NCBI GenBank assembly: GCA_016926595.1
Contig: JAFGOG010000382.1
Coordinates: 1 to 17,994, forward strand
Source: Anaerolineae bacterium
GTDB taxonomy: Bacteria; Chloroflexota; Anaerolineae; JAAYZQ01
Direction of reading: 5' to 3'
Length of the DNA: 17,994 bases
The notes beneath the pieces were generated by a model, which was not told the DNA's origin, made no database searches, and saw only the letters and a program-made list of their open reading frames with translations. The translations under genes and the position numbers were made by a program. Of this stretch, positions 4,396 to 17,994 are shown one piece after another; the first letter of the stretch is position 1, and every line of letters begins with the position of its first letter.

Positions 4396-5172
4396 TCAGC
4401 CCTTGACCGTGATGCCGATGTAGTGGATCTCGACCGAGTCGTCGGCCTTGACAACCCGCAGGCAGTAGGTGGTCGTCTGCGAGGGACAGACCTGCTGCTC
4501 GCCTTCGCCCGCCACGCCATGATCCTGCCAGTTTGCACTCTCGGGGTAAAAGTAGACCGCCTTGACACCCTCGACGTGCCAGCGAAAATTCACACATTCG
4601 CCGGGCCGGACGGCAGCTCTGTCAGCCGAGAAGGCCGGCAGCCCTGCCTCAACCTGGACCTGAATCGGGATCTTGTGCACATCCACCGAGTCGTCGCGAT
4701 TCACGATCCGCAGGCAGTAGGTAGTGGTCTGCGAGGGGCAGACTTGCTGCTCGCCTTCGCCCACCACACCATGCTCCTCCCAGCGCTCGCCCTCGGCGAA
4801 AAAGTAGATAGCCTTGATCCCATCCACGCGCCAGCGGAAGGTGACGCATTCGCCGGGCCGGATCTCGGCCCTGTCCACAGAGAACATCCGGCTGGCCGTA
4901 GCCGCCGCCAGAGCCTGAGGCTGGACCTGGATCGTCCTCTTGCGCACCTCAACCGAGTCATCGACCTTGATCACCCGCAGGCAGTAGGTGGTGGTCTGTG
5001 AAGGGCTGACCTGCTGCTCTCCATCGCCCACTACACCATGCTCTCGCCACCGCTCTCCTTCGGTGAAAAAGTAGACTTCCCTGACGTTTTCCACGTGCCA
5101 GCGCAAAGTCGCGCTCTCGCCCGGTTGGATCACTTCTCGATCTGCCCGGAAGCGGATAATGGGTTCGCCCAT
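4396..5172 (-). CDS. Protein of three tandem Ig-like repeats with conserved GEC / VCPSQTTTY motifs
   Basis: A 258-residue protein built from three repeats of about 80 residues (roughly 5-83, 94-173 and 178-256) joined by short linkers. Each repeat reads: F-x-(A/V)-DR-x-x-(I/V)-x-PGE, then a short RW strand, (A/V)-YF(F/Y), HGV(V/A)G, GEQQV, PSQTTTYCLR, DDSVE/D. The alternating beta pattern and TTTYCLRV end resemble Ig-like modules seen in Chloroflexota proteins; this is recognition from memory. There is no signal peptide or membrane helix, so it may be cytoplasmic. Cysteines at the GEC and VCPS positions occur in repeats 2 and 3 (C109/C145, C193/C229) and both are serine in repeat 1 (S20/S56). 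The DNA is also repetitive: GGCAGTAGGT begins at 4461, 4713 and 4980. The ATG at 5172 follows a GAGGAGGAG site. The molecular function is unknown; a binding or scaffold role is inferred. Confidence 0.85.
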   Translation of the reverse strand: MGEPIIRFRADREVIQPGESATLRWHVENVREVYFFTEGERWREHGVVGDGEQQVSPSQTTTYCLRVIKVDDSVEVRKRTIQVQPQALAAATASRMFSVDRAEIRPGECVTFRWRVDGIKAIYFFAEGERWEEHGVVGEGEQQVCPSQTTTYCLRIVNRDDSVDVHKIPIQVQVEAGLPAFSADRAAVRPGECVNFRWHVEGVKAVYFYPESANWQDHGVAGEGEQQVCPSQTTTYCLRVVKADDSVEIHYIGITVKG

Positions 5173-5350: not shown

Positions 5351-5397
5351 CGAGACCTGAGAGACTATAGGATCACGACGCATCGGAGGATATGTTG

Positions 5398-6102
5398 ATG
5401 CCCGCTTCTCGTCACATTCTGGCCTGCGCCACCGTCATGGAGGAGATGCTGCCCCTCCTCCCGGCCGATGTGTCGTACCAGGTCCTCGATTTTGGCCTCC
5501 ACATCAACCCCACCAGCCTGAAACGCGCGCTCCAGGACGCGATCGACACGGCCGCGGGCGCCGTCGATACTGTTATCCTGGGCTATGGTCTGTGCAACAT
5601 GGCCGTCATCGGCTTGTGGGCCAACGGCTGCAAATTGGTTGTCCCGCGAGTGGACGACTGCATCGCCATCTTTTTGGGCTCTGGCCGCGCCTACAAACAG
5701 CAATCGCGCGCCGAGCCCGGCACCTACTACCTCACCAAGGGATGGATTGAAGTCGGCGACACGCCTTTCAAAGACTATGACCGGCTGGCAGACAAGTACG
5801 GACCCCAAAAGGCCGAGTGGGTCATCCGCGAGATGATCAAGCACTACACCCGCCTGGCTCTGATCGACACCGGACGGGATGGCATTGAGCGTTACCAGGA
5901 ATATGCCCGCAGCCTGGCCGAGCGCTGGAGCCTGCGGTTCGAGGAAATACCCGGCTCTAACGCCTTGGTGCGCAAGATGCTTTTTGGCCCCTGGGACGAC
6001 GACTTTGTGGTCGTCCCGCCCGGCGAGTCGATCCGCTATGAGGACTTTTCCCCGGTGGGCCCGCCACCCCCGTCAGGGCAAATTAAGGAGATGACAGAAT
6101 GA
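5398..6102 (+). CDS. DUF1638 family protein
   Basis: A 234-residue protein of the DUF1638 family. Recognisable family landmarks are ILACATVMEEM near the N-terminus, LGYGLCN (61-67), PRVDDCIAIFLGS (83-95) and GTYYLTKGW (108-116). No enzyme activity is established for the family as far as I know; its genes are often found beside corrinoid methyltransferases in methylotrophic and acetogenic metabolism, and that holds here. Cysteines C10, C66 and C88 fall in the conserved blocks and could bind metal or contact a corrinoid, which is inference. The start at 5398 is preferred to an ATG at 5392 because GGAGG (5385-5389) is 8 bases before 5398 but only 2 bases before 5392. Its stop overlaps the next start by 4 bases (ATGA), so the two proteins are probably made in step. 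Confidence 0.85.
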   Translation: MPASRHILACATVMEEMLPLLPADVSYQVLDFGLHINPTSLKRALQDAIDTAAGAVDTVILGYGLCNMAVIGLWANGCKLVVPRVDDCIAIFLGSGRAYKQQSRAEPGTYYLTKGWIEVGDTPFKDYDRLADKYGPQKAEWVIREMIKHYTRLALIDTGRDGIERYQEYARSLAERWSLRFEEIPGSNALVRKMLFGPWDDDFVVVPPGESIRYEDFSPVGPPPPSGQIKEMTE

Positions 6103-6893
6103 AGATCATCGGCGAAAAAATTAACGGTACCCGCAAACAGGTAAAAGAGGCAGTGTTGAACCGCGACGCGGCGTTCATCCAAAAGCTGGCCAGCGACCAG
6201 GCGCAAGCAGGCGCAGCCTGGATCGACGTCAACGCCGGTACGCCCGTGGAGCGCGAGCCGGAAGACCTGATCTGGCTGGTGCAGACGGTGCAGTCGGCGG
6301 TCGACAAGCCGCTGTGCCTGGACAGCGCCAACCCATCTGCGTTGGCGGCCGCCCTGCTTAAGGCGGCCAAGGCCCCCCTTATCAACTCGATCAGCGGCGA
6401 GCAGGAACGGCTGGCGGGGGTGCTCCCCCTCGCTGCCCAAGCGCAGGGCGGCGTGATCGCCCTGGCCATGGACGACAAGGGCATCCCGGCGACGACCGAG
6501 GGCCGGTTGGAGATCGTGCAGCGTCTCATCGGCCTGACGCGCGAGGCAGGCATTCCCGACGAGCAGGTATACGTGGACCCGCTAGTCATGACCATCGGCG
6601 CGAGCGGCGACGCCGGCCGCATTGCGCTGGCCACGGTGCGCGCGGTCAAGGCCAAGTTCCCGAAGGTCCATTTCACCTCAGGCCTCAGCAACGTGTCGTT
6701 TGGTCTGCCCTCCCGCTCGCTCATCAACCGGGCCTTCCTGACGCTGATGCTCGAGGCCGGGCTGGACAGCGCCATCCTCGATCCGCTCGACCGCGAGCTG
6801 CGTAAGGCAATTCTAGCGGTCGAGGCAGTGCTGGGCATTGATCGCTACTGCTTGAACTACACCCGGGCATTCCGCGCCGGGCTGTTGGAATAA
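6099..6893 (+). CDS. Methyltetrahydrofolate:corrinoid protein methyltransferase (AcsE/MtgA-like)
   Basis: Pterin-binding TIM barrel that moves a methyl group between methyltetrahydrofolate and the cobalt of a corrinoid protein. At 264 residues it matches AcsE (about 262) rather than the longer folP-type dihydropteroate synthases. Pterin-site motifs are all present: DVNAGT (43-48), CLDSANP (73-79, Asp75), INSISGE (95-101, Asn96), YVDPLV (158-163, Asp160) and GLSNVSFGLPSR (195-206, Asn198). These correspond to the folate-binding Asp and Asn residues known in AcsE and MetH. It is coupled to the DUF1638 gene by a 4-base overlap. No corrinoid protein, corrinoid-activating ATPase or carbonyl branch gene lies in the window, so the direction of transfer (Wood-Ljungdahl or a methylamine/glycine-betaine type demethylation) cannot be decided. 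Confidence 0.9.
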   Translation: MKIIGEKINGTRKQVKEAVLNRDAAFIQKLASDQAQAGAAWIDVNAGTPVEREPEDLIWLVQTVQSAVDKPLCLDSANPSALAAALLKAAKAPLINSISGEQERLAGVLPLAAQAQGGVIALAMDDKGIPATTEGRLEIVQRLIGLTREAGIPDEQVYVDPLVMTIGASGDAGRIALATVRAVKAKFPKVHFTSGLSNVSFGLPSRSLINRAFLTLMLEAGLDSAILDPLDRELRKAILAVEAVLGIDRYCLNYTRAFRAGLLE

Positions 6894-7885: not shown

Positions 7886-7914
7886 TTGACCAAACCCCCT
7901 TTCTGTGCTACAAT
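7886..7914 (+). promoter_or_regulatory. Promoter of the TPR-HEPN/NACHT operon
   Basis: TTGACC (7886-7891), a 17-base spacer and TACAAT (7909-7914) each match five of six consensus positions. The -10 overlaps a potential upstream start at 7905, which supports the downstream ATG at 7968 as the real start. The leader would be about 47 bases. Confidence 0.7.
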
Positions 7915-7967: not shown

Positions 7968-10301
7968 ATGAGTCACTGGCAGCTCAGAATAGGAAAGATA
8001 GCCTGGTTTCTACTGATTCTCAGCCTGGCTTTCCCAACCTTCGCCCTCGCTCAGCAGACTCCCCCGCCTTCACCCGACGACAGTCAGGCATTGGAGCTCA
8101 AGCTGGGCCGGTTCTATGAAGATCTAGGCGAATTCGAAGAGGCCTGTCAGCACTTCAGGGCCGCAGCCGGCGGCGCAGACCAGGCGCTGGCAGAAGAGGC
8201 ATGGCAGGCTCTTACCGACTGCGAAAACAAGCGCAGGGATCAGCCACGCGCCCTCGCCAGCAGGACACTCGAGTGGCTGGCGGATGTGGGCACCCGCCTT
8301 GTCCTCATTGCCCTGGGGGCGCTCCTGTTGTTCCTAGTGCTGCGAGCGATCCACCGCCGGCAGCGCTCGGGCTACTTGCTCCTGCCATTCGACGACCTGA
8401 CCGGCGAGAACCTCGGCCCGTCGATCGCCGGCGCTTTTGCCGCCATGCTGCGCGAGATCGCCTTTGTCCATCGAACCCAGGCCGAGGAGATCTTGACCCT
8501 ATCGGAAGAGTTGGACCTTCCCAGCTTTGGCACGCCGGATGAGGGTGGGACACTGACTGCTTCCCTTCTTCGATTCGTAGATGCGGTAACCATCGGCATG
8601 GTTCAGGTCCCCATGCAGGGACTCCTGAGGCTATTCGGCACCCTCCTTCGCCCCGTGCGTTATCACATCTCAGGGCTGGTCTCATCCTCCGGCGACGACC
8701 TGCATATCACCATCTACCTGAGCGACAGCAGGAGCGGGGCAGTAGAGTGCGTATGGCGGGAGGTGGCGCCCAAGGGCCAGAGGTCCGGCTGGGCCCCTCT
8801 GCTGCAGCGATCGGCCTATCGCGTCGTGTACCACGCCGGCCAGGGAGACCTGCAAGCCGGTTCGCCGGAGAGCTTTGAGCTCTTTTCCGAAGGGCTGCAG
8901 CTTCAGCGCGCCTATGCCGGCTCGCCCCAAAACGCGGCCTTCCTACAGGAGGCAAAGCTCAAGCTGGAGGCAGCCCTGAGCCTCGATCCAGACTATGTGC
9001 TGGCCCAGTACGCTTTGGGCAGCGTGTACATGAATTTGGGCCAATACACCGAGGCAAAGGAGATCTTTCGTATCCTGCGCGACGGAACCGATAGGTACCG
9101 CGCCGCCGTGTGCTATCATCTGGGCCAGGCCTATCACCACATCCGGCAGGACTGGACAGCCAAACTGGCCATCGAGGCTTTTGACCAGGCAGTTCAGGCA
9201 GCCGGCGACCCGCCCTGCGACGATGCCCGGCGGCGCCTGCTGGCGCTGTCGCACATCGGCCTGGCGCTGGCCCATGCTCAGATCGGCGAGCGCAAGCTGC
9301 AGCTGGACGGTGCGACGGATCCGTGGCACGAAGCGCAGGCCCATCTGCGGCGAGCCCAAGAGCTGGCATATCCCCTCCCACCGTCAGCCCAAGGTGCCTG
9401 GCAGCGCCTACGGTCTGTCGTTGCCAAGCCCACACCGTGCCAGCCAGAACCGGACATCGAGGCCTTTGCTTCCACTGCCGAGGGGGTGATCGCCCTGGGC
9501 CGCGCCGATCTAAAAGTCGCCCAGGCGGCATTCGCCCGATCCGCCCGCCTCAAGCCCGATTATCCTGCCAACTACCTCTACTGGGCCGAGGCGTGTCTCA
9601 AAGCAGGCGAGCAGGACGAACCACTGCGCGAGCAAAAGCAGGATGAAGCCGTGCAGCATCTGCGCCGGGCGATCCGCATCCGCCCACACCACGAATATGC
9701 GCACTACCGGCTGGGGTTGCTGCTGGAAAAACAGGGCAGGCATGATGAGGCCATAACAGCCTTGGAGCGCGCGCCCGGCATTGCCCGGGCCCACAACGCT
9801 CGTGGTCAGATTCTGGCCGAGCAGTACGAGCGGCTTTCCGAAGCCCTTGTCGCGTTCCGGCAAGCTGTCCACTCTAACAAGCACCTGTCTCAGGCGTGGA
9901 TCAACCTCGCCTGGTGGTTGCTTGAAGCTCACCCCAACGAGCCACAGGCGGCGAAAGAAGCCGAGGAGTGCGCCCGCCGGGCGCTGCACATTGACCTTGA
10001 TACCGACCAGGAGTGGCACCGCCGCACAGTCCTTGGCCGGGCGCTGCTGGAGCAGGGGGAGATCGAGCGCGCTCGGCAGGAGCTAGAGCAAGCAATCGCC
10101 GCCGAGCGAGAGCCCCACCGCCAGAGCCGTTACACCCTGGCTCAGGCCCACTATCACGCTGGCGATCTAAACAGCGCCCAACAGACCCTGAAGCAGATGT
10201 TCAAGCAGTTCGAGGGCCAGCCCAAAGACCTGTGGCACGACCGTTCCGTCGAGCTGATCCGACAGATCCAAAAGGAGCTGCCCAATGAGCCCGGCCGATG
10301 A
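7968..10301 (+). CDS. Membrane-anchored TPR protein with uncharacterised central domain
   Basis: A 777-residue protein. Residues 1-28 form a signal peptide ending ALA before Q29. About 80 extracytoplasmic residues include one TPR-like helical pair (LGRFYEDLGEFEEACQHF). A membrane helix at about 110-127 is followed by the basic AIHRRQRSG, so the rest should be cytoplasmic. Residues 134-290 form a compact alpha/beta domain beginning YLLLPFDDLTGENLGPSIA; its opening loosely resembles TolB N-terminal-like domains, but I cannot name it. From about 300 to the end lie many TPRs, for example 330-375, 545-580 and 660-775, as expected for a protein-protein interaction platform. Start 7968 is chosen for AGGGAGG (7953-7959) 8 bases upstream, the signal peptide and the promoter position. 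The last 17 bases overlap the next gene, implying coupled translation with the HEPN-NACHT protein and probably a physical partnership. Confidence 0.87.
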   Translation: MSHWQLRIGKIAWFLLILSLAFPTFALAQQTPPPSPDDSQALELKLGRFYEDLGEFEEACQHFRAAAGGADQALAEEAWQALTDCENKRRDQPRALASRTLEWLADVGTRLVLIALGALLLFLVLRAIHRRQRSGYLLLPFDDLTGENLGPSIAGAFAAMLREIAFVHRTQAEEILTLSEELDLPSFGTPDEGGTLTASLLRFVDAVTIGMVQVPMQGLLRLFGTLLRPVRYHISGLVSSSGDDLHITIYLSDSRSGAVECVWREVAPKGQRSGWAPLLQRSAYRVVYHAGQGDLQAGSPESFELFSEGLQLQRAYAGSPQNAAFLQEAKLKLEAALSLDPDYVLAQYALGSVYMNLGQYTEAKEIFRILRDGTDRYRAAVCYHLGQAYHHIRQDWTAKLAIEAFDQAVQAAGDPPCDDARRRLLALSHIGLALAHAQIGERKLQLDGATDPWHEAQAHLRRAQELAYPLPPSAQGAWQRLRSVVAKPTPCQPEPDIEAFASTAEGVIALGRADLKVAQAAFARSARLKPDYPANYLYWAEACLKAGEQDEPLREQKQDEAVQHLRRAIRIRPHHEYAHYRLGLLLEKQGRHDEAITALERAPGIARAHNARGQILAEQYERLSEALVAFRQAVHSNKHLSQAWINLAWWLLEAHPNEPQAAKEAEECARRALHIDLDTDQEWHRRTVLGRALLEQGEIERARQELEQAIAAEREPHRQSRYTLAQAHYHAGDLNSAQQTLKQMFKQFEGQPKDLWHDRSVELIRQIQKELPNEPGR

Positions 10302-13300
10302 GCTGGATCAATTGATCCTGACCCACTTCCCCTATCCCCTAGCCGTCAACTACAAGCGGCTGCTGGGCGAGCCCGACCTCGAGCGCAAGACGCGCACCGC
10401 ACTCCAGGTGTTTGAGTTCGGGCTGCGGGCCGTGGCCCTCCAGGTCATCAGCCAGTACATGCAGAACGACATCAAAGAGATACCCGACCCAACCGTGAAC
10501 CAACTGCTGTCCAGAAAGATCGACAAGGCCACGTTGGGGGTGTGGAGAGAGCTCCTGTTCACGACCTTGGACGCCTATGCCGGGTACCGCGATCGCCTCG
10601 CCTGTCCAGAGCTGGCCGATCTCCGCTGGGAACCTGGTACAGACAGGGAGCGCAAGGGCATACAGGGCCACTTTGTCCGCCTGATCGAAATCCGCAATCG
10701 GCTCGCTCATAGGTTGCCTCCTCAGACAGAGGAGGCATGGCGCGATTTGTACCAGAAGGTGGCAGTAGACCTGCGTGCAGTGCTCGAGCTCTTTTCGTTC
10801 CTTCAGAACTATGATCTCATGCTGTGCAGGCAAGGCGAAGGAGGGCGAGAATGTGTCTTTTTCACCGGCCTTGAGCCCCAGATTGTCCGCGGTGACCTGC
10901 CGGCCGAAATGCCAAGCGCAGATCACGAATTCTACCTGCGACGCAAGGATGGTCAGCGTCTCGTGCCGCTGCACCCCTTGATCATCCACTGGCAGAAGGC
11001 CGCCAGCGATGCGCATGCGATAGCCTCAAGCCTCAGCCTCAGCGACGCCGCCCTTTACGACTCGTTCACCAGCTCGGTCATCCATTACCTAGCTACCGTC
11101 GTGTGGGAAAACGTCGAAATCGGGGGTCAAGCAGAAACGTTCCAGGAGTTCTTTACCCGGATCGGGACCGTGCTGGACCAGATCGGCAAGGTTCGCCGCC
11201 GGGAACCCCGGCTGACCTGGAAGGTGCTCGAAGATGTGGCCGGCTTTGTCGTCGAAGACCGATTGGGCACAGCGGAGGACAGATACGATCCGGCCCTGTA
11301 CCTGCCGCGCGAGGCAGTTCACCGGGCATTCAAGGAGTTTCTGTCTTCCGACAAACCGGCCTTTGTCCTCCTGGGCAGCTCAGGTGTCGGCAAGAGCTGC
11401 TTTGTCCTGTCGCTTGTGGAGGAGTACAGAGATGTAGACGAGTGCTGCATCCTGATGTATGATAGCGCGCACTTTGACGTGAGCGTGCCCATCCGCCAGA
11501 TTCTGAGCCAGCACTTTAGCGACTATCTCGAAATCTCCACCGCAGAAGGCGTCCGCAGAATCGACGACATCTTGACCGAGATCAACCAGATCGACGGCAT
11601 CGCCCACCGCCGTGTGGTCCTCATATTCGACGCCATCAACGAGCACGAGGCGCCCGACAAGTTGTTGCGGCAGATCTGCGCCCTGGTCCAAGGCCCCCCC
11701 TTCACCTGGCTCAAGGTTGTTCTCACCTGCCGGCCCGAAGCGTGGCGCAGGTTGAGGGCTAGAAAGGACCTGATACTGACCCCCAGCAAATACTACCGCA
11801 TTTCAGACGCAGCCCAGTGCGGAATCCAGTTCGCCGGCAGCGGCCAGCAGCCGCCCAGAGGTGAAGACTGGATCCAACTCCGGCCCTTTAGCCTTGAGGA
11901 ATTGCCGGCCGTGTATGCCAGATACCAGGGTGTATTTCAGTTGCAGGATGGGTACGGGGATCTGCCGGTCAACGTTCGGGAGATCATCCGCGATCCACTC
12001 GCCCTCAAGTTGGTTGCCGAGACATGGGCTGGTAAAAGCATCCCTGGGCAACTCCGCGCCGCAGAACTCCGCAGACTTTACATCAAACACTTGCTCGATA
12101 CCAAGCGCCTGGACCCAATGGACTTGGATTTGCTGGTCACAGATCTTGTTCCGCTCATGATCAGTCCAGGCAACTATACCAACCAGATCACAGCCGACCA
12201 AATCCGGAAGGAGCAGTTGAATGGAGTACGGCTTCTCGAGGTGGTCTATAGCCAAGAGCTGCTGGGCGGCGAGCCGATCAACCAACGTTTCATGGACCTA
12301 GTGAACGCCGACATCCTGACATTGCGGGGCTCCGACCCCGACCGTGAGATCGGGTTCGAGTACGAGCGCTTTTACGAGTATTTCGCCGGCCAACGCCTGT
12401 ACGACTTGGTGAACACACCCGCCACCCGCCCGGTTACAGACAAGGTGGCGGCCTATGCCGACCTAGGCGTCCAGGCCCAGGAAAAATCCTTCCTCTGGGG
12501 TGCGCTGAAAGATGCCCTCTTTGTCGAGCTGGAAAAACGCGCGGCCGATCAGGGCTGGGAGCTATTCCTTGCCCTGGCTGGCCAACAGACGAGCAGCCTG
12601 CGCAGCGCTCTCCAGGCCGCCCTGGTCGAGTTTGCCCAGGCAGCGCCTGGACCGGTACAGGATCTGGTTTCAGACATACTGACCCAGGCCGGCCAGAAGC
12701 AGGGCGAGGTGGATCCGCAGACGCGGGGAAGCGGCACGCTGGCCGTGGAGCTCGCCGCCCGGCTCGGCAGTTGGGAGGCGCTGGAAAAGGCAGCGCTAAT
12801 GCCGTCGGAGGTCATGCGCTCTCTGGGCGTCACCTATCTCTACTACCTGTGGCCGACGGACCCCAGGCGCGGTGAGCAGGCCATGCAAGCCATCGCTGAC
12901 CGGGTCACCGCCCCGCGTTTGGGCTTTGACCGGGACGCGCTCGAAGCGTTTATCGGCTATTCGCTGCCGGTCCTCTTTGCCCACCGCACCGAGCCTGACA
13001 CGGTCAAGGCCGTGCAAAGGGTGTGGCAGGGCGTTCTGGCTCAGTTCCCCTTCAGCCTGCTGCTCCGGGGCGGCGGAGTGCTGGGTGGGATCTCGCGAGC
13101 TGTCATGCCGGGCGTCATCTTTGTGGTCACGCGCATCGCCGGCATCCTACGCGCGGTGGCGCCCGAAGGCGAGAGCGTCAACGCCCTGGCCGAGATGGAC
13201 GCTTTTTTCCACAAGAACGACCACACCCGCAGGCAGATCGAGCGGCTAATCCCCTACATCGACCCGGCCCGCGGGGATATCACGGCCGAGGAAGAAACGA

Positions 13301-14154
13301 TCCTGGAGCTCGCCGCCGGGCGCGACGGCATCGCCCAGCTCCTCACCTGGGCCATCCTTTTGTCCCATGGCGTGCGACAGCCCGAGCAGATGCTGCCGCT
13401 CCTCCAGAAAGCGTTCCACGCAGCCGTCGGCCAGTCTCCTCCGACGCCTTATACCCATTCGCTCATCGCTATCGTGCAGAACATCCTGTACGAGCAGGAC
13501 CCGGTTGGCTCAGAGTGGCTGGCATTGGCGGAGAGATGGATGCGCCGGGTTATGGAAAAGTCGCGCTTTAAAATGCAGACCAAGACGGGCGCCTTTCGCA
13601 AGTCGTACCTGGACTGGTACCTGCACAACTATTACCGTCTTTACCACCATACGAACTCAGAGCTGGCGCGAGATTATATGAGGGGATACAAAGACGGCAG
13701 CGATCCCAAAGTCATGGAGGATTTTGTGGCCTGTATGGGGACGCTGGGCATGGAGCTGCGCAATCCCCCGGCTGTGACCGACGCCATCGAGACCTTTTGC
13801 GATCTGCACAACGCCGACGTCCGGAAGCAACTCCTTCCTCTGCTGGCTACGCTCCGGTTCCACGATCTGGAGACCGTAGAGCAGTTCCTGGAGCGGTCCG
13901 ACGCGCCGTCCAGCTTTAAGGACCAGGTGCGCTGCTATCCCCCAAAAGAGACGGTCGGCCTGCTGCTTGTGCGCCTGGGCGCATGGACTATACGCGACAC
14001 GATCCTCATCCGGCCTAATCCGTGGTTGATGCGGCACTTCCAGGCCATGTTGTTCGGGATCGTCCGTTCGTCGAATACGAATCAGGCGCTGCGAACGGCG
14101 CTGGCTACGCTGACCAGCATCGTTTACGGCGAAGATCCTCCGCCGCTTCACTGA
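10285..14154 (+). CDS. HEPN-like / NACHT-type STAND NTPase with helical C-terminus
   Basis: A 1289-residue signalling NTPase. Residues 1-175 are helical and carry RNRLAH (137-142), the RNxxxH signature of HEPN RNases and toxins. A linker region follows to about 345. The P-loop NTPase has Walker A GSSGVGKS (364-371), Walker B VVLIFDAINEH (444-454) and a sensor-like LTCRPEAWR (480-488). The winged-helix region ends with FEYERFYEYFAGQRL (691-705), typical of NACHT/STAND proteins. The remaining roughly 580 residues are helical, probably HEAT- or TPR-like and ligand sensing, with a hydrophobic patch near 921-958. There is no signal peptide, so the protein is cytoplasmic. AAGGAG lies 7 bases before the ATG, and the start overlaps the TPR gene by 17 bases. 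STAND proteins usually oligomerise on a trigger and switch on an N-terminal effector; by analogy this could be an RNase-based defence or stress switch. A non-defence regulatory role is equally possible. Confidence 0.88.
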   Translation: MSPADELDQLILTHFPYPLAVNYKRLLGEPDLERKTRTALQVFEFGLRAVALQVISQYMQNDIKEIPDPTVNQLLSRKIDKATLGVWRELLFTTLDAYAGYRDRLACPELADLRWEPGTDRERKGIQGHFVRLIEIRNRLAHRLPPQTEEAWRDLYQKVAVDLRAVLELFSFLQNYDLMLCRQGEGGRECVFFTGLEPQIVRGDLPAEMPSADHEFYLRRKDGQRLVPLHPLIIHWQKAASDAHAIASSLSLSDAALYDSFTSSVIHYLATVVWENVEIGGQAETFQEFFTRIGTVLDQIGKVRRREPRLTWKVLEDVAGFVVEDRLGTAEDRYDPALYLPREAVHRAFKEFLSSDKPAFVLLGSSGVGKSCFVLSLVEEYRDVDECCILMYDSAHFDVSVPIRQILSQHFSDYLEISTAEGVRRIDDILTEINQIDGIAHRRVVLIFDAINEHEAPDKLLRQICALVQGPPFTWLKVVLTCRPEAWRRLRARKDLILTPSKYYRISDAAQCGIQFAGSGQQPPRGEDWIQLRPFSLEELPAVYARYQGVFQLQDGYGDLPVNVREIIRDPLALKLVAETWAGKSIPGQLRAAELRRLYIKHLLDTKRLDPMDLDLLVTDLVPLMISPGNYTNQITADQIRKEQLNGVRLLEVVYSQELLGGEPINQRFMDLVNADILTLRGSDPDREIGFEYERFYEYFAGQRLYDLVNTPATRPVTDKVAAYADLGVQAQEKSFLWGALKDALFVELEKRAADQGWELFLALAGQQTSSLRSALQAALVEFAQAAPGPVQDLVSDILTQAGQKQGEVDPQTRGSGTLAVELAARLGSWEALEKAALMPSEVMRSLGVTYLYYLWPTDPRRGEQAMQAIADRVTAPRLGFDRDALEAFIGYSLPVLFAHRTEPDTVKAVQRVWQGVLAQFPFSLLLRGGGVLGGISRAVMPGVIFVVTRIAGILRAVAPEGESVNALAEMDAFFHKNDHTRRQIERLIPYIDPARGDITAEEETILELAAGRDGIAQLLTWAILLSHGVRQPEQMLPLLQKAFHAAVGQSPPTPYTHSLIAIVQNILYEQDPVGSEWLALAERWMRRVMEKSRFKMQTKTGAFRKSYLDWYLHNYYRLYHHTNSELARDYMRGYKDGSDPKVMEDFVACMGTLGMELRNPPAVTDAIETFCDLHNADVRKQLLPLLATLRFHDLETVEQFLERSDAPSSFKDQVRCYPPKETVGLLLVRLGAWTIRDTILIRPNPWLMRHFQAMLFGIVRSSNTNQALRTALATLTSIVYGEDPPPLH

Positions 14155-16873: not shown

Positions 16874-17994
16874 ATGAAGCGTGACCCGGCTCACGTGATA
16901 GGTGAATACCTAGCTCTTGTCGAAAAAGGAGACCAGGCGGCTCTGATCGACCTGATGGCCCGCCACCCCGAGGAGCTGGGCTCGCTGAGCCTTCACACAG
17001 ACAGACCCACCCGGCAGGAACCCGCAACAGGCAAGCACGCGGCCACCCTGCAAGCGGCTGGCTTGTTTGTAATGGTGCTTGTCGCCCTGGTTTTCATCGC
17101 CGCCGACCTTTTGCCATTCCATCTCGAGCCGGGTGCATCCCCCACCGCCACACTGACCCAGGCAGACGGGGAGGTGTATATTCTCGCCGCCGGCGCGACT
17201 TGGCAGCCAGCCAGGATCGGGACGTCGATTCAAGCAGGAGATTCTGTCCGCACCGGACCCCACTCCGCCGCTCAACTGACCTTCTCCGATGGGAGCATGA
17301 CCAGCCTAGATGCTGAGGCAGAGATTGCCGTCGCCAGGCTGGATCCCCGGCAAGATAGCGATGTCAACACCGTCGTCCTTCAACAGCGATTAGGCCGAAC
17401 CTACAATCGCATCCGGCCATCGCCCGACCTGGCCTATCACTTTGAGATTGAGACTCCAACGGCAGTCACCGCGGTGCGCGGCACCGAGTTCGTCGTAGAT
17501 GTAGAATTCAGCGGCGCCACCCACGTCGTCGTGATCGAGGGGGTGGTGGATGTAACGGCTCAAGAGGTCACGGTAGAGGTGCAGGCCAGGCACGAAACCA
17601 CCGTCGAACCGGCGCAAACACCCTCGGCCGTGCGGCCCGCCTCAATGCCGCTTTTGTATTCCAGGTCCACACCTGAATCGTCCGCCGAGATTCAGACGCC
17701 ACAAACGCCCGGCCAACCCGAAGCGCCGCAACCATCATGCACGCCGCAACCCACCGAAATGCAGCCGACCAAGATGTCATATCCGACCCGCGCGCCCGCA
17801 CCGGCGGACACGTTCACGCCAACAGACACACCCGAGCCAACACCCACGCCGCAGCCAACTAATATGCCGCAGCCGACCGACACGCCCACGCCAACACCCA
17901 CGCCGCAGCCGACCGACACGCCCACGCCAACAGCAACCAACACGCTCGAGCCGACCAAAGAACCTGAACCCACCAAGACGCCCAAGCCTACCAA
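16874..17994 (+). CDS. FecR-domain membrane protein with Pro/Thr-rich tail (3' end outside window)
   Basis: The frame is open from the ATG at 16874 to the window edge: 373 complete codons without a stop. Residues 1-58 are a short cytoplasmic region, 59-79 a membrane helix (TLQAAGLFVMVLVALVFIAAD), and about 93-225 a FecR domain: GEVYILAAGATWQPARIG, a SVRTGPHSAAQLTFSDGSMTSL-type core with the SxAxLxFxDGS pattern, and VTAVRGTEFVVDV. From about 245 the protein becomes a Pro/Thr spacer full of TPTPxPT units, as in surface proteins of Chloroflexota. The FecR domain and tail should be outside the cell. An in-frame TGA lies two codons before the ATG, so it cannot start further upstream; the ribosome-binding site is weak. 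FecR classically relays signals to an ECF sigma factor, but isolated FecR domains with surface tails are probably structural or ligand-binding; which applies here cannot be decided. Confidence 0.88.
   Translation, partial: MKRDPAHVIGEYLALVEKGDQAALIDLMARHPEELGSLSLHTDRPTRQEPATGKHAATLQAAGLFVMVLVALVFIAADLLPFHLEPGASPTATLTQADGEVYILAAGATWQPARIGTSIQAGDSVRTGPHSAAQLTFSDGSMTSLDAEAEIAVARLDPRQDSDVNTVVLQQRLGRTYNRIRPSPDLAYHFEIETPTAVTAVRGTEFVVDVEFSGATHVVVIEGVVDVTAQEVTVEVQARHETTVEPAQTPSAVRPASMPLLYSRSTPESSAEIQTPQTPGQPEAPQPSCTPQPTEMQPTKMSYPTRAPAPADTFTPTDTPEPTPTPQPTNMPQPTDTPTPTPTPQPTDTPTPTATNTLEPTKEPEPTKTPKPT
17867..17938 (+). repeat. Tandem 36-bp repeat in the Pro/Thr tail
   Basis: Two adjacent 36-base units (17867-17902 and 17903-17938) are identical over the first 30 bases and match at 33 of 36 positions. 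They encode PQPTDTPTPTPT-like units. The degenerate surroundings (17821-17994) follow the same CCNACN codon pattern, so this tract can expand or contract by slippage or recombination. Confidence 0.75.

Follow-up and report, generated by a model that had tools for sequence, protein, structure and literature searches.

A HEPN-like STAND NTPase and an adjoining membrane-associated TolB-N-like/TPR protein as a probable two-gene unit in Anaerolineae

In the window analysed here, a stretch of 17,994 nucleotides from an Anaerolineae bacterium, two overlapping genes encode a membrane-associated protein with a TolB-N-like domain and TPRs (gene 1) and a STAND NTPase with a HEPN-like N-terminus (gene 2) (Table 1). 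Because the two are also found together in a distant relative, we consider from their sequences that they probably form a working unit. We propose that this unit is a HEPN-NACHT switch with a dedicated membrane partner, and that its likeliest use would be an inducible halt of growth in response to phage or a comparable attack, a reading that we favor tentatively and at somewhat less than even confidence.

Table 1. Features of the gene pair and its flanks (positions in the window).
Feature	Position	Strand	Details
Promoter-like TTGACC-17-TACAAT, upstream of gene 1	7886..7914	+	10/12 consensus positions, extended -10
Gene 1	7968..10301	+	777 aa, ATG 7968 to TGA 10301; membrane-associated TolB-N-like/TPR protein
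Signal-peptide-like N-terminus of gene 1, residues 1-28	7968..8051	+	hydrophobic segment 8-29
Predicted membrane helix of gene 1, about residues 109-128	8292..8351	+	hydrophobic segment 103-131
TolB-N/PelC/FlgT/CsgG-like domain of gene 1, about residues 131-300	8358..8867	+	
TPR array of gene 1, about residues 320-770	8925..10277	+	Pfam TPR_19 E=1.6e-21 and others
AAAGGAG, Shine-Dalgarno-like site of gene 2, within gene 1 end	10271..10277	+	7 nt before gene 2 ATG
Gene 2	10285..14154	+	1289 aa, ATG 10285 to TGA 14154; HEPN-like / beta domain / STAND (NACHT) / C-terminal region
HEPN-like helical bundle of gene 2, residues 1-176	10285..10812	+	structural model
RNRLAH, RNxxxH motif (fits Rx4-6H), residues 137-142 of gene 2	10693..10710	+	
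Beta-rich domain between HEPN and STAND, about residues 177-285 of gene 2	10813..11139	+	
NACHT/NPHP3_N NTPase core, residues about 341-500 of gene 2	11305..11784	+	Pfam and motifs
Walker A GSSGVGKS, residues 364-371 of gene 2	11374..11397	+	
Walker B DAINE, residues 449-453 of gene 2	11629..11643	+	
YERFYEYFAG, conserved block ending STAND module of gene 2	12361..12390	+	E694-Y697 and G702 invariant in 20 rows of alignment A1
C-terminal region of gene 2, residues 716-1289	12430..14151	+	kin to kinase-STAND C-terminus; presumed sensor

Both genes are real, since close relatives span their entire length: gene 2 has full-length relatives at 81, 79 and 69% identity, and gene 1 has one at 75% (P0025). 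Their third-position GC is 0.74 and 0.76, and seven other genes of the window span 0.70-0.84. The initial annotation had placed two overlapping reading frames here, and both the coordinates and the overlap of exactly 17 nt on the forward strand match; the frame of gene 1 is already open from GTG 7905. That annotation had further described a strong promoter ahead of gene 1. The consensus match is present, but its strength is doubtful, as the region holds 4 such sites, compared with 1.6 +/- 1.3 in shuffled sequence. Likewise, the proposal that the 17-base overlap fixes the stoichiometry is weaker than claimed: gene 2 has its own Shine-Dalgarno-like site, and therefore the overlap alone leaves the stoichiometry unfixed.

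The assignment of gene 2 as a STAND NTPase with a HEPN-like, RNxxxH-bearing N-terminus is supported by Pfam, the Walker motifs, the modeled bundle and the RNRLAH motif. In Pfam, the core matches NPHP3_N at 26.2 bits (cut-off 24.8) and NACHT at 22.1 bits, below the cut-off of 26.7; residues G364, G367, G369, K370, D449 and E453 are invariant across the 20 rows of the gene-2 alignment (A1). The N-terminus is modeled as a HEPN-like bundle, with HEPN toxins first and second among the chains re-aligned. No Pfam HEPN family matched gene 2 at E up to 1, nor its relatives in a Ktedonobacter (L001) and in Anaerolineales UBA6092 (L002) at E up to 0.01; according to the part of the survey by Anantharaman et al. 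2013 (PMC3710099) that we draw on, HEPN families frequently diverge too far for such matching. Shuffling the first 250 residues yields an RNxxxH motif in 1.3% of cases. The motif is kept in 12 of 22 alignment rows, among them the whole clade of the window (four rows, the window itself and P0002-P0004) and the distant L002, and it is absent from the other 10, which include a 7-row group at 100/100 support. This absence calls for caution on the RNase reading. The earlier idea of a membrane-tethered sensor controlling an RNase effector is supported in part, by the membrane-type segments of the partner and the HEPN-like N-terminus.

The C-terminal region of gene 2 is presumed to be the sensor, and Pfam found no repeat families in it. 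Residues 320-1224 align at 24% identity (E=5e-39) with a Ser/Thr kinase-STAND protein (L005), one of several such Chloroflexota proteins, L007 among them, that are about 1230 aa long and in which the STAND and C-terminal region are related to those of gene 2 and a kinase replaces the HEPN and beta module. The N-terminus of gene 2 therefore appears exchangeable. The nearest solved STAND by sequence is Avs2 (9o4e, E=2e-4), and Avs2 (AVAST type 2) is also the closest PADLOC and NCBIfam match. We rejected gene 2 as a full Avs2, as the NCBIfam score reaches 21.4 bits where the cut-off is 1000 and only residues about 354-484 match; in the L002 relative, one Avs2 profile covers residues 340-721.

Gene 1 was initially annotated as having a signal peptide, one membrane helix and cytoplasmic TPRs. 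The TPRs and the membrane-type segments hold: the hydrophobic segments at window residues 8-29 and 103-131 both occur in all four gene-1 family members, the window included. The relatives are P0025 and P0026 (43%) and a gene at 7690-9864 of L002 (29% over 760 aligned columns, E=1e-51). The cytoplasmic topology is less secure than stated. The TPRs and TolB-N-like domain are predicted to lie on the cytoplasmic side from the count of two hydrophobic segments, the K/R counts are undecisive, and the L002 relative has an additional, weaker segment at 195-216. The membrane helix is separated from the TPR array by a domain with a TolB-N-like fold, as in CadC, TolB, PelC and FlgT; Pfam gave no family for residues 103-331 at E up to 1. 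This domain is absent from the initial annotation. In CadC, too, a domain of this type is linked to a membrane helix, and the solved TolB-N-like relatives are periplasmic or outer-membrane. The domain of gene 1 differs from those of CadC, TolB, PelC and FlgT in that it is predicted to be cytoplasmic, is followed by TPRs and is without a Pfam match.

A gene-1 partner adjoins gene 2 in three of the four contexts judged (the window, the P0003/P0025 contig, L002 and L001), in two orientations, and one of these three is inferred rather than read; this supports the two-gene unit of the initial annotation. In the inferred case, P0003 (gene 2) and P0025 (gene 1) share the same longest-contig figure, 11646, and their ends are compatible with a window-type 17-nt overlap, although a trivial 4-nt overlap would fit too; as a control, an overlap of at least 14 nt could be written for 2 of 272 other tail/head pairs. 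In L002, the gene-1 relative is divergent to gene 2 and lies 97 nt away, is the single gene-1 match in a genome of 4.1 Mb, and forms with its neighbor a pair at 25-29% identity to that of the window. Both relatives judged to have the partner (P0003 and L002) keep RNxxxH. No gene 1 was seen with the gene-2 homologue of L001, where RNxxxH is lost and a TIR gene (PADLOC ThsB1 profile, E=6.5e-39) lies 73 nt upstream. TIR genes are common in the class of L001.

Full gene 2 was found in 2/400, 1/400, 1/47 and 1/38 genomes across four draws, always G001 or G002; it is thus rare and patchy, even inside one family (the draw of 38). The gene-1 middle domain occurred in 1 of 400 Chloroflexota genomes, namely G002, the one that carries the pair and whose own sequence is among the four profile rows. 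PADLOC saw no known defense genes among the seven other window genes to which it was applied, with only generic ATPase and TetR-type matches, and a defense-island setting is unsupported so far. The system had no match in phages, plasmids or viral contigs. An antiphage role is nevertheless plausible.

Parts of this arrangement are known already. Bacterial proteins with an N-terminal HEPN followed by STAND have been described (PMC3710099), and, like gene 2, these fusions carry Rx4-6H and both modules in one protein; in one row of a table there, STAND-ATPase, TPR and S1 appear alongside HEPN. Gene 2 and its relatives differ from them in the beta domain and in the loss of RNxxxH from 10 of 22 rows, and the available part of that survey does not mention a membrane TolB-N/TPR partner gene. 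It does provide a precedent for a TPR partner in the LA2681 family, where HEPN is fused to TPR and lies in an operon with TPR genes; the LA2681 row states neither STAND nor a membrane partner, and our comparison with gene 2, a Pfam scan, gave no HEPN match. bNACHT25, for which defense has been shown, likewise has an N-terminal effector, a central NACHT and a C-terminal sensor; its effector is a PD-(D/E)XK DNase, and the portion of the report used here mentions no membrane partner (PMC12169576). The HEPN antiphage system Tha also has a HEPN protein activated during phage infection, with neither NACHT nor a membrane partner mentioned in the excerpted account (PMC11087260). The initial annotation knew of no described system with this arrangement. 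This claim has to be narrowed by the HEPN/TPR operon family LA2681 (PMC3710099, as excerpted), and it stands for the membrane TolB-TPR partner of a HEPN-STAND protein, of which we found no description in the partly viewed open-access literature (bioRxiv's own collection and most subscription journals lie outside this scope).

Based on these findings, we suggest a plausible mechanism. Gene 2 would be a bacterial STAND (NLR-like) switch whose C-terminal region detects a trigger; the NACHT ATPase would then oligomerize and bring the HEPN domains together, and the assembled HEPN domains would cut RNA and stop growth. Gene 1, with its signal/anchor segment, one membrane helix, TolB-N-like domain and presumably cytoplasmic-side TPRs, would be the dedicated membrane partner. 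By binding the gene 2 product, it may retain that protein at the membrane, where gene 1 would either hold it inactive pending an envelope-level event or pass the trigger on. A bolder version, possible but rather unlikely, is a membrane-tethered bacterial NLR: the TolB-N/TPR protein would be a receptor that detects a cell-surface event (phage attachment or DNA entry) and triggers the HEPN-NACHT RNase, and related lineages would retain the STAND and C-terminus but exchange the output, for a kinase within the same chain or for a TIR protein encoded next door. Most characterized bacterial NLR-like proteins are cytoplasmic and recognize phage proteins inside the cell. If true, a NACHT with a conserved membrane partner would offer a testable path from an envelope event to RNA cleavage. 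The exchange of effectors (HEPN with or without the motif, kinase) around one STAND and C-terminal module is also a natural experiment in switch evolution.

The pair could instead serve envelope-stress signaling, sensing membrane or wall damage and trimming RNA in an Ire1-like manner as a regulator and not an immune system. A membrane-associated HEPN with stimulus-dependent RNA decay has been proposed before (PMC3710099, in the part used here). The membrane-type segments of gene 1, its TolB-N-like domain with a fold shared by CadC and TolB, and the lack of defense genes among the seven window genes run through PADLOC all accord with this idea. The great rarity and patchiness of the pair argue against it, as does the STAND architecture, which is known mostly from immunity and cell death, and we regard such a role as doubtful, roughly on a par with the receptor version above.

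Slightly less likely again is that the HEPN-like domain is no enzyme and serves as an adaptor recruiting other effectors, such as a TIR protein, with the RNxxxH of the window as a remnant. The 10 motif-less rows, the TIR gene beside the motif-less L001 homologue and the lack of a Pfam HEPN match for gene 2 would agree with this; the retention of the motif throughout the window's clade, in 12 of 22 rows overall and in both relatives judged to have the partner speaks against it. Comparably improbable is that gene 1 is a neutralizer in the style of toxin-antitoxin systems, holding a toxic gene 2 product off until loss of gene 1 frees it. HEPN toxins are known to share operons with their neutralizers, and gene 1 comes first in an overlapping order; toxin-antitoxin proteins are, however, normally far smaller than these two products, and L001 has gene 2 with no gene 1 seen, although its HEPN motif is lost. 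That the genes are chance neighbors with separate roles is very unlikely: compact genomes often contain short overlaps, gene 2 carries a ribosome site of its own and L001 lacks a visible gene 1, but the compatible ends of P0003 and P0025, and the adjacency in L002 at such low identity, in a different orientation and with the only gene-1 match of that genome, speak against it.

Based on the domains, motifs and adjacency that we observe for the gene pair, we infer how its products could bind each other, their topology, an RNase activity, a trigger and a purpose. The trigger would be sensed by the C-terminus of gene 2 or via gene 1; the NACHT cores would then assemble, driven by ATP, and bring the HEPN domains together, and these would cut RNA and stop growth, with gene 1 tethering the gene 2 machine at the membrane. 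We hold this whole reading as tentative, slightly short of an even chance; our confidence was lowered because no Pfam HEPN family matches gene 2 and RnlA ties with unrelated bundles in the comparison of its HEPN-like domain. PMC3710099 already describes bacterial HEPN-STAND proteins, membrane-linked HEPN proteins (section 15) and the LA2681 HEPN family, which is fused to TPR and lies in operons with TPR genes. What appears new against the known HEPN-STAND proteins is the dedicated membrane TolB-TPR partner gene, since searches of one open-access library turned up no such partner of a STAND protein.

Both ORFs lie where the initial annotation had placed them, and their 17-nt overlap is borne out by the sequence. 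The "strong promoter" it had claimed corresponds to a promoter-like site, but with four such sites in 7.9 kb versus 1.6 ± 1.3 in shuffles, it is a plausible promoter at most.

Coordinates of features in the window and in the Ktedonobacter locus (L001)
Feature	Sequence	Position	Strand	Remark
258-aa protein	window	4396-5172	-	
DUF1638 gene	window	5392-6102	+	
Pterin-binding methyltransferase-like gene	window	6099-6893	+	
Promoter-like site	window	7886-7914		upstream of gene 1
AGGGAGG	window		+	upstream of gene 1 ATG; sequence
Gene 1	window	7968-10301	+	
AAAGGAG	window		+	7 nt before gene 2 ATG, within gene 1 end; sequence
Gene 2	window	10285-14154	+	
FecR-domain protein	window	16874-17994	+	
Transposase-like ORF and IscB-like HNH ORF	L001	2406-3836 and 7600-8889		by eye
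TIR gene	L001	9118-9912	+	264 aa

The proposal that the two genes form a module is supported: the partner lies beside gene 2, in two orientations, in three of the four contexts judged (the window, P0003/P0025, L002 and L001), and was not seen in L001. The gene-2 relative P0003 and the gene-1 relative P0025 have the same longest listed contig (11646 bases), and we infer that they share it. A single DNA sequence can encode both the tail of P0025 and the head of P0003 with an overlap of 17 nt, identical in length to that of the window, and a trivial overlap of 4 nt is equally compatible; overlaps of at least 14 nt were allowed in 2 of 272 control pairs. In L002 (Anaerolineales UBA6092), a gene-2 relative on the + strand (motif RNEIHH) lies 97 nt from a gene-1 relative on the - strand (29% identity, E = 1e-51). 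The gene-1 middle domain matched 1 of 400 Chloroflexota genomes, that of L002, with a four-row profile that includes L002's own sequence; the L001 genome, included in the gene-2 search of the same draw, gave no match, and no gene-1-like ORF was seen by eye across 23.7 kb of L001 (Ktedonobacter sp. SOSP1-85). A role of gene 1 as a neutraliser is a serious rival to our main reading.

RNxxxH is present in 12 of 22 aligned rows (window, P0002-P0009, P0012, P0018 and L002) and absent from ten (P0010, P0011, P0013-P0017, P0019, P0020 and L001). On the 21-row tree (partial P0019 excluded), this distribution needs three changes, at least two forced by well-supported branches, and a seven-row group at 100/100 lacks the motif throughout. 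The losses cluster on the tree, and the HEPN-like domain is probably inactive in some lineages and may have turned adaptor; a HEPN domain serving as an adaptor only is likewise a serious rival. The losses caution against a simple RNase story and are equally an interesting pattern.

In the 15 other genomes matched in the phylum draw (L005-L019), the STAND region, and partly the C-terminus, is common with gene 2; the large ORF (~1230 aa) opens with the same kinase-like sequence in 11, confirmed by Pfam as a Ser/Thr kinase (Pkinase) in both tested (L005 and L007); residues 320-1224 align between L005 and gene 2 (24%, E = 5e-39). The N-terminal module thus looks exchangeable and the remainder conserved, the pattern expected of an effector/switch/sensor protein.

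A GTDB genome-contig scan reduced 54 pattern matches to two loci. In searches that score few candidates per genome, full gene 2 occurred in 2/400 genomes of the phylum, 1/400 of the order and 1/38 of the family of G002 (the L002 genome), and 1/47 of the class of G001 (the L001 genome), always in these same two; both had been included in the draws on account of their previously known matches. All named genomes with relatives are Chloroflexota. Given this rarity and the lack of matches in plasmids, phages and viral contigs, the pair is, by sequence searches, accessory-like. The defence-island setting raised initially is not visible, PADLOC returning only generic ATPase and TetR-type matches for seven other window genes; envelope-stress signalling is a serious rival purpose, and like the other two it overlaps our main reading in part. 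In L001, the gene-2 relative, which lacks the motif, is preceded at a distance of 73 nt by a TIR gene matching the PADLOC ThsB1 profile (E = 6.5e-39); this is weak evidence for defence because 26 of the 47 genomes searched in the Ktedonobacter class carry TIRs of this kind (five matches in G001 itself). The transposase-like and IscB-like ORFs, a few kb before that relative, suggest a mobile neighbourhood.

The window's neighbouring genes include, by Pfam, DUF1638, pterin-binding, MscS, alpha/beta hydrolase and FecR-domain genes, with ABC-transporter-like and TetR-like genes recognised from translations; no tRNA or Rfam element was found in the window. The DUF1638 and pterin-binding genes overlap by 4 nt and may be a corrinoid methyl-transfer pair. 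By eye, the 258-aa protein, with marginal Pfam matches only, apparently consists of three ~80-residue repeats around an SQTTTYCLR motif. The long proline/threonine-rich repeat tail of the FecR-domain protein runs beyond the window end.
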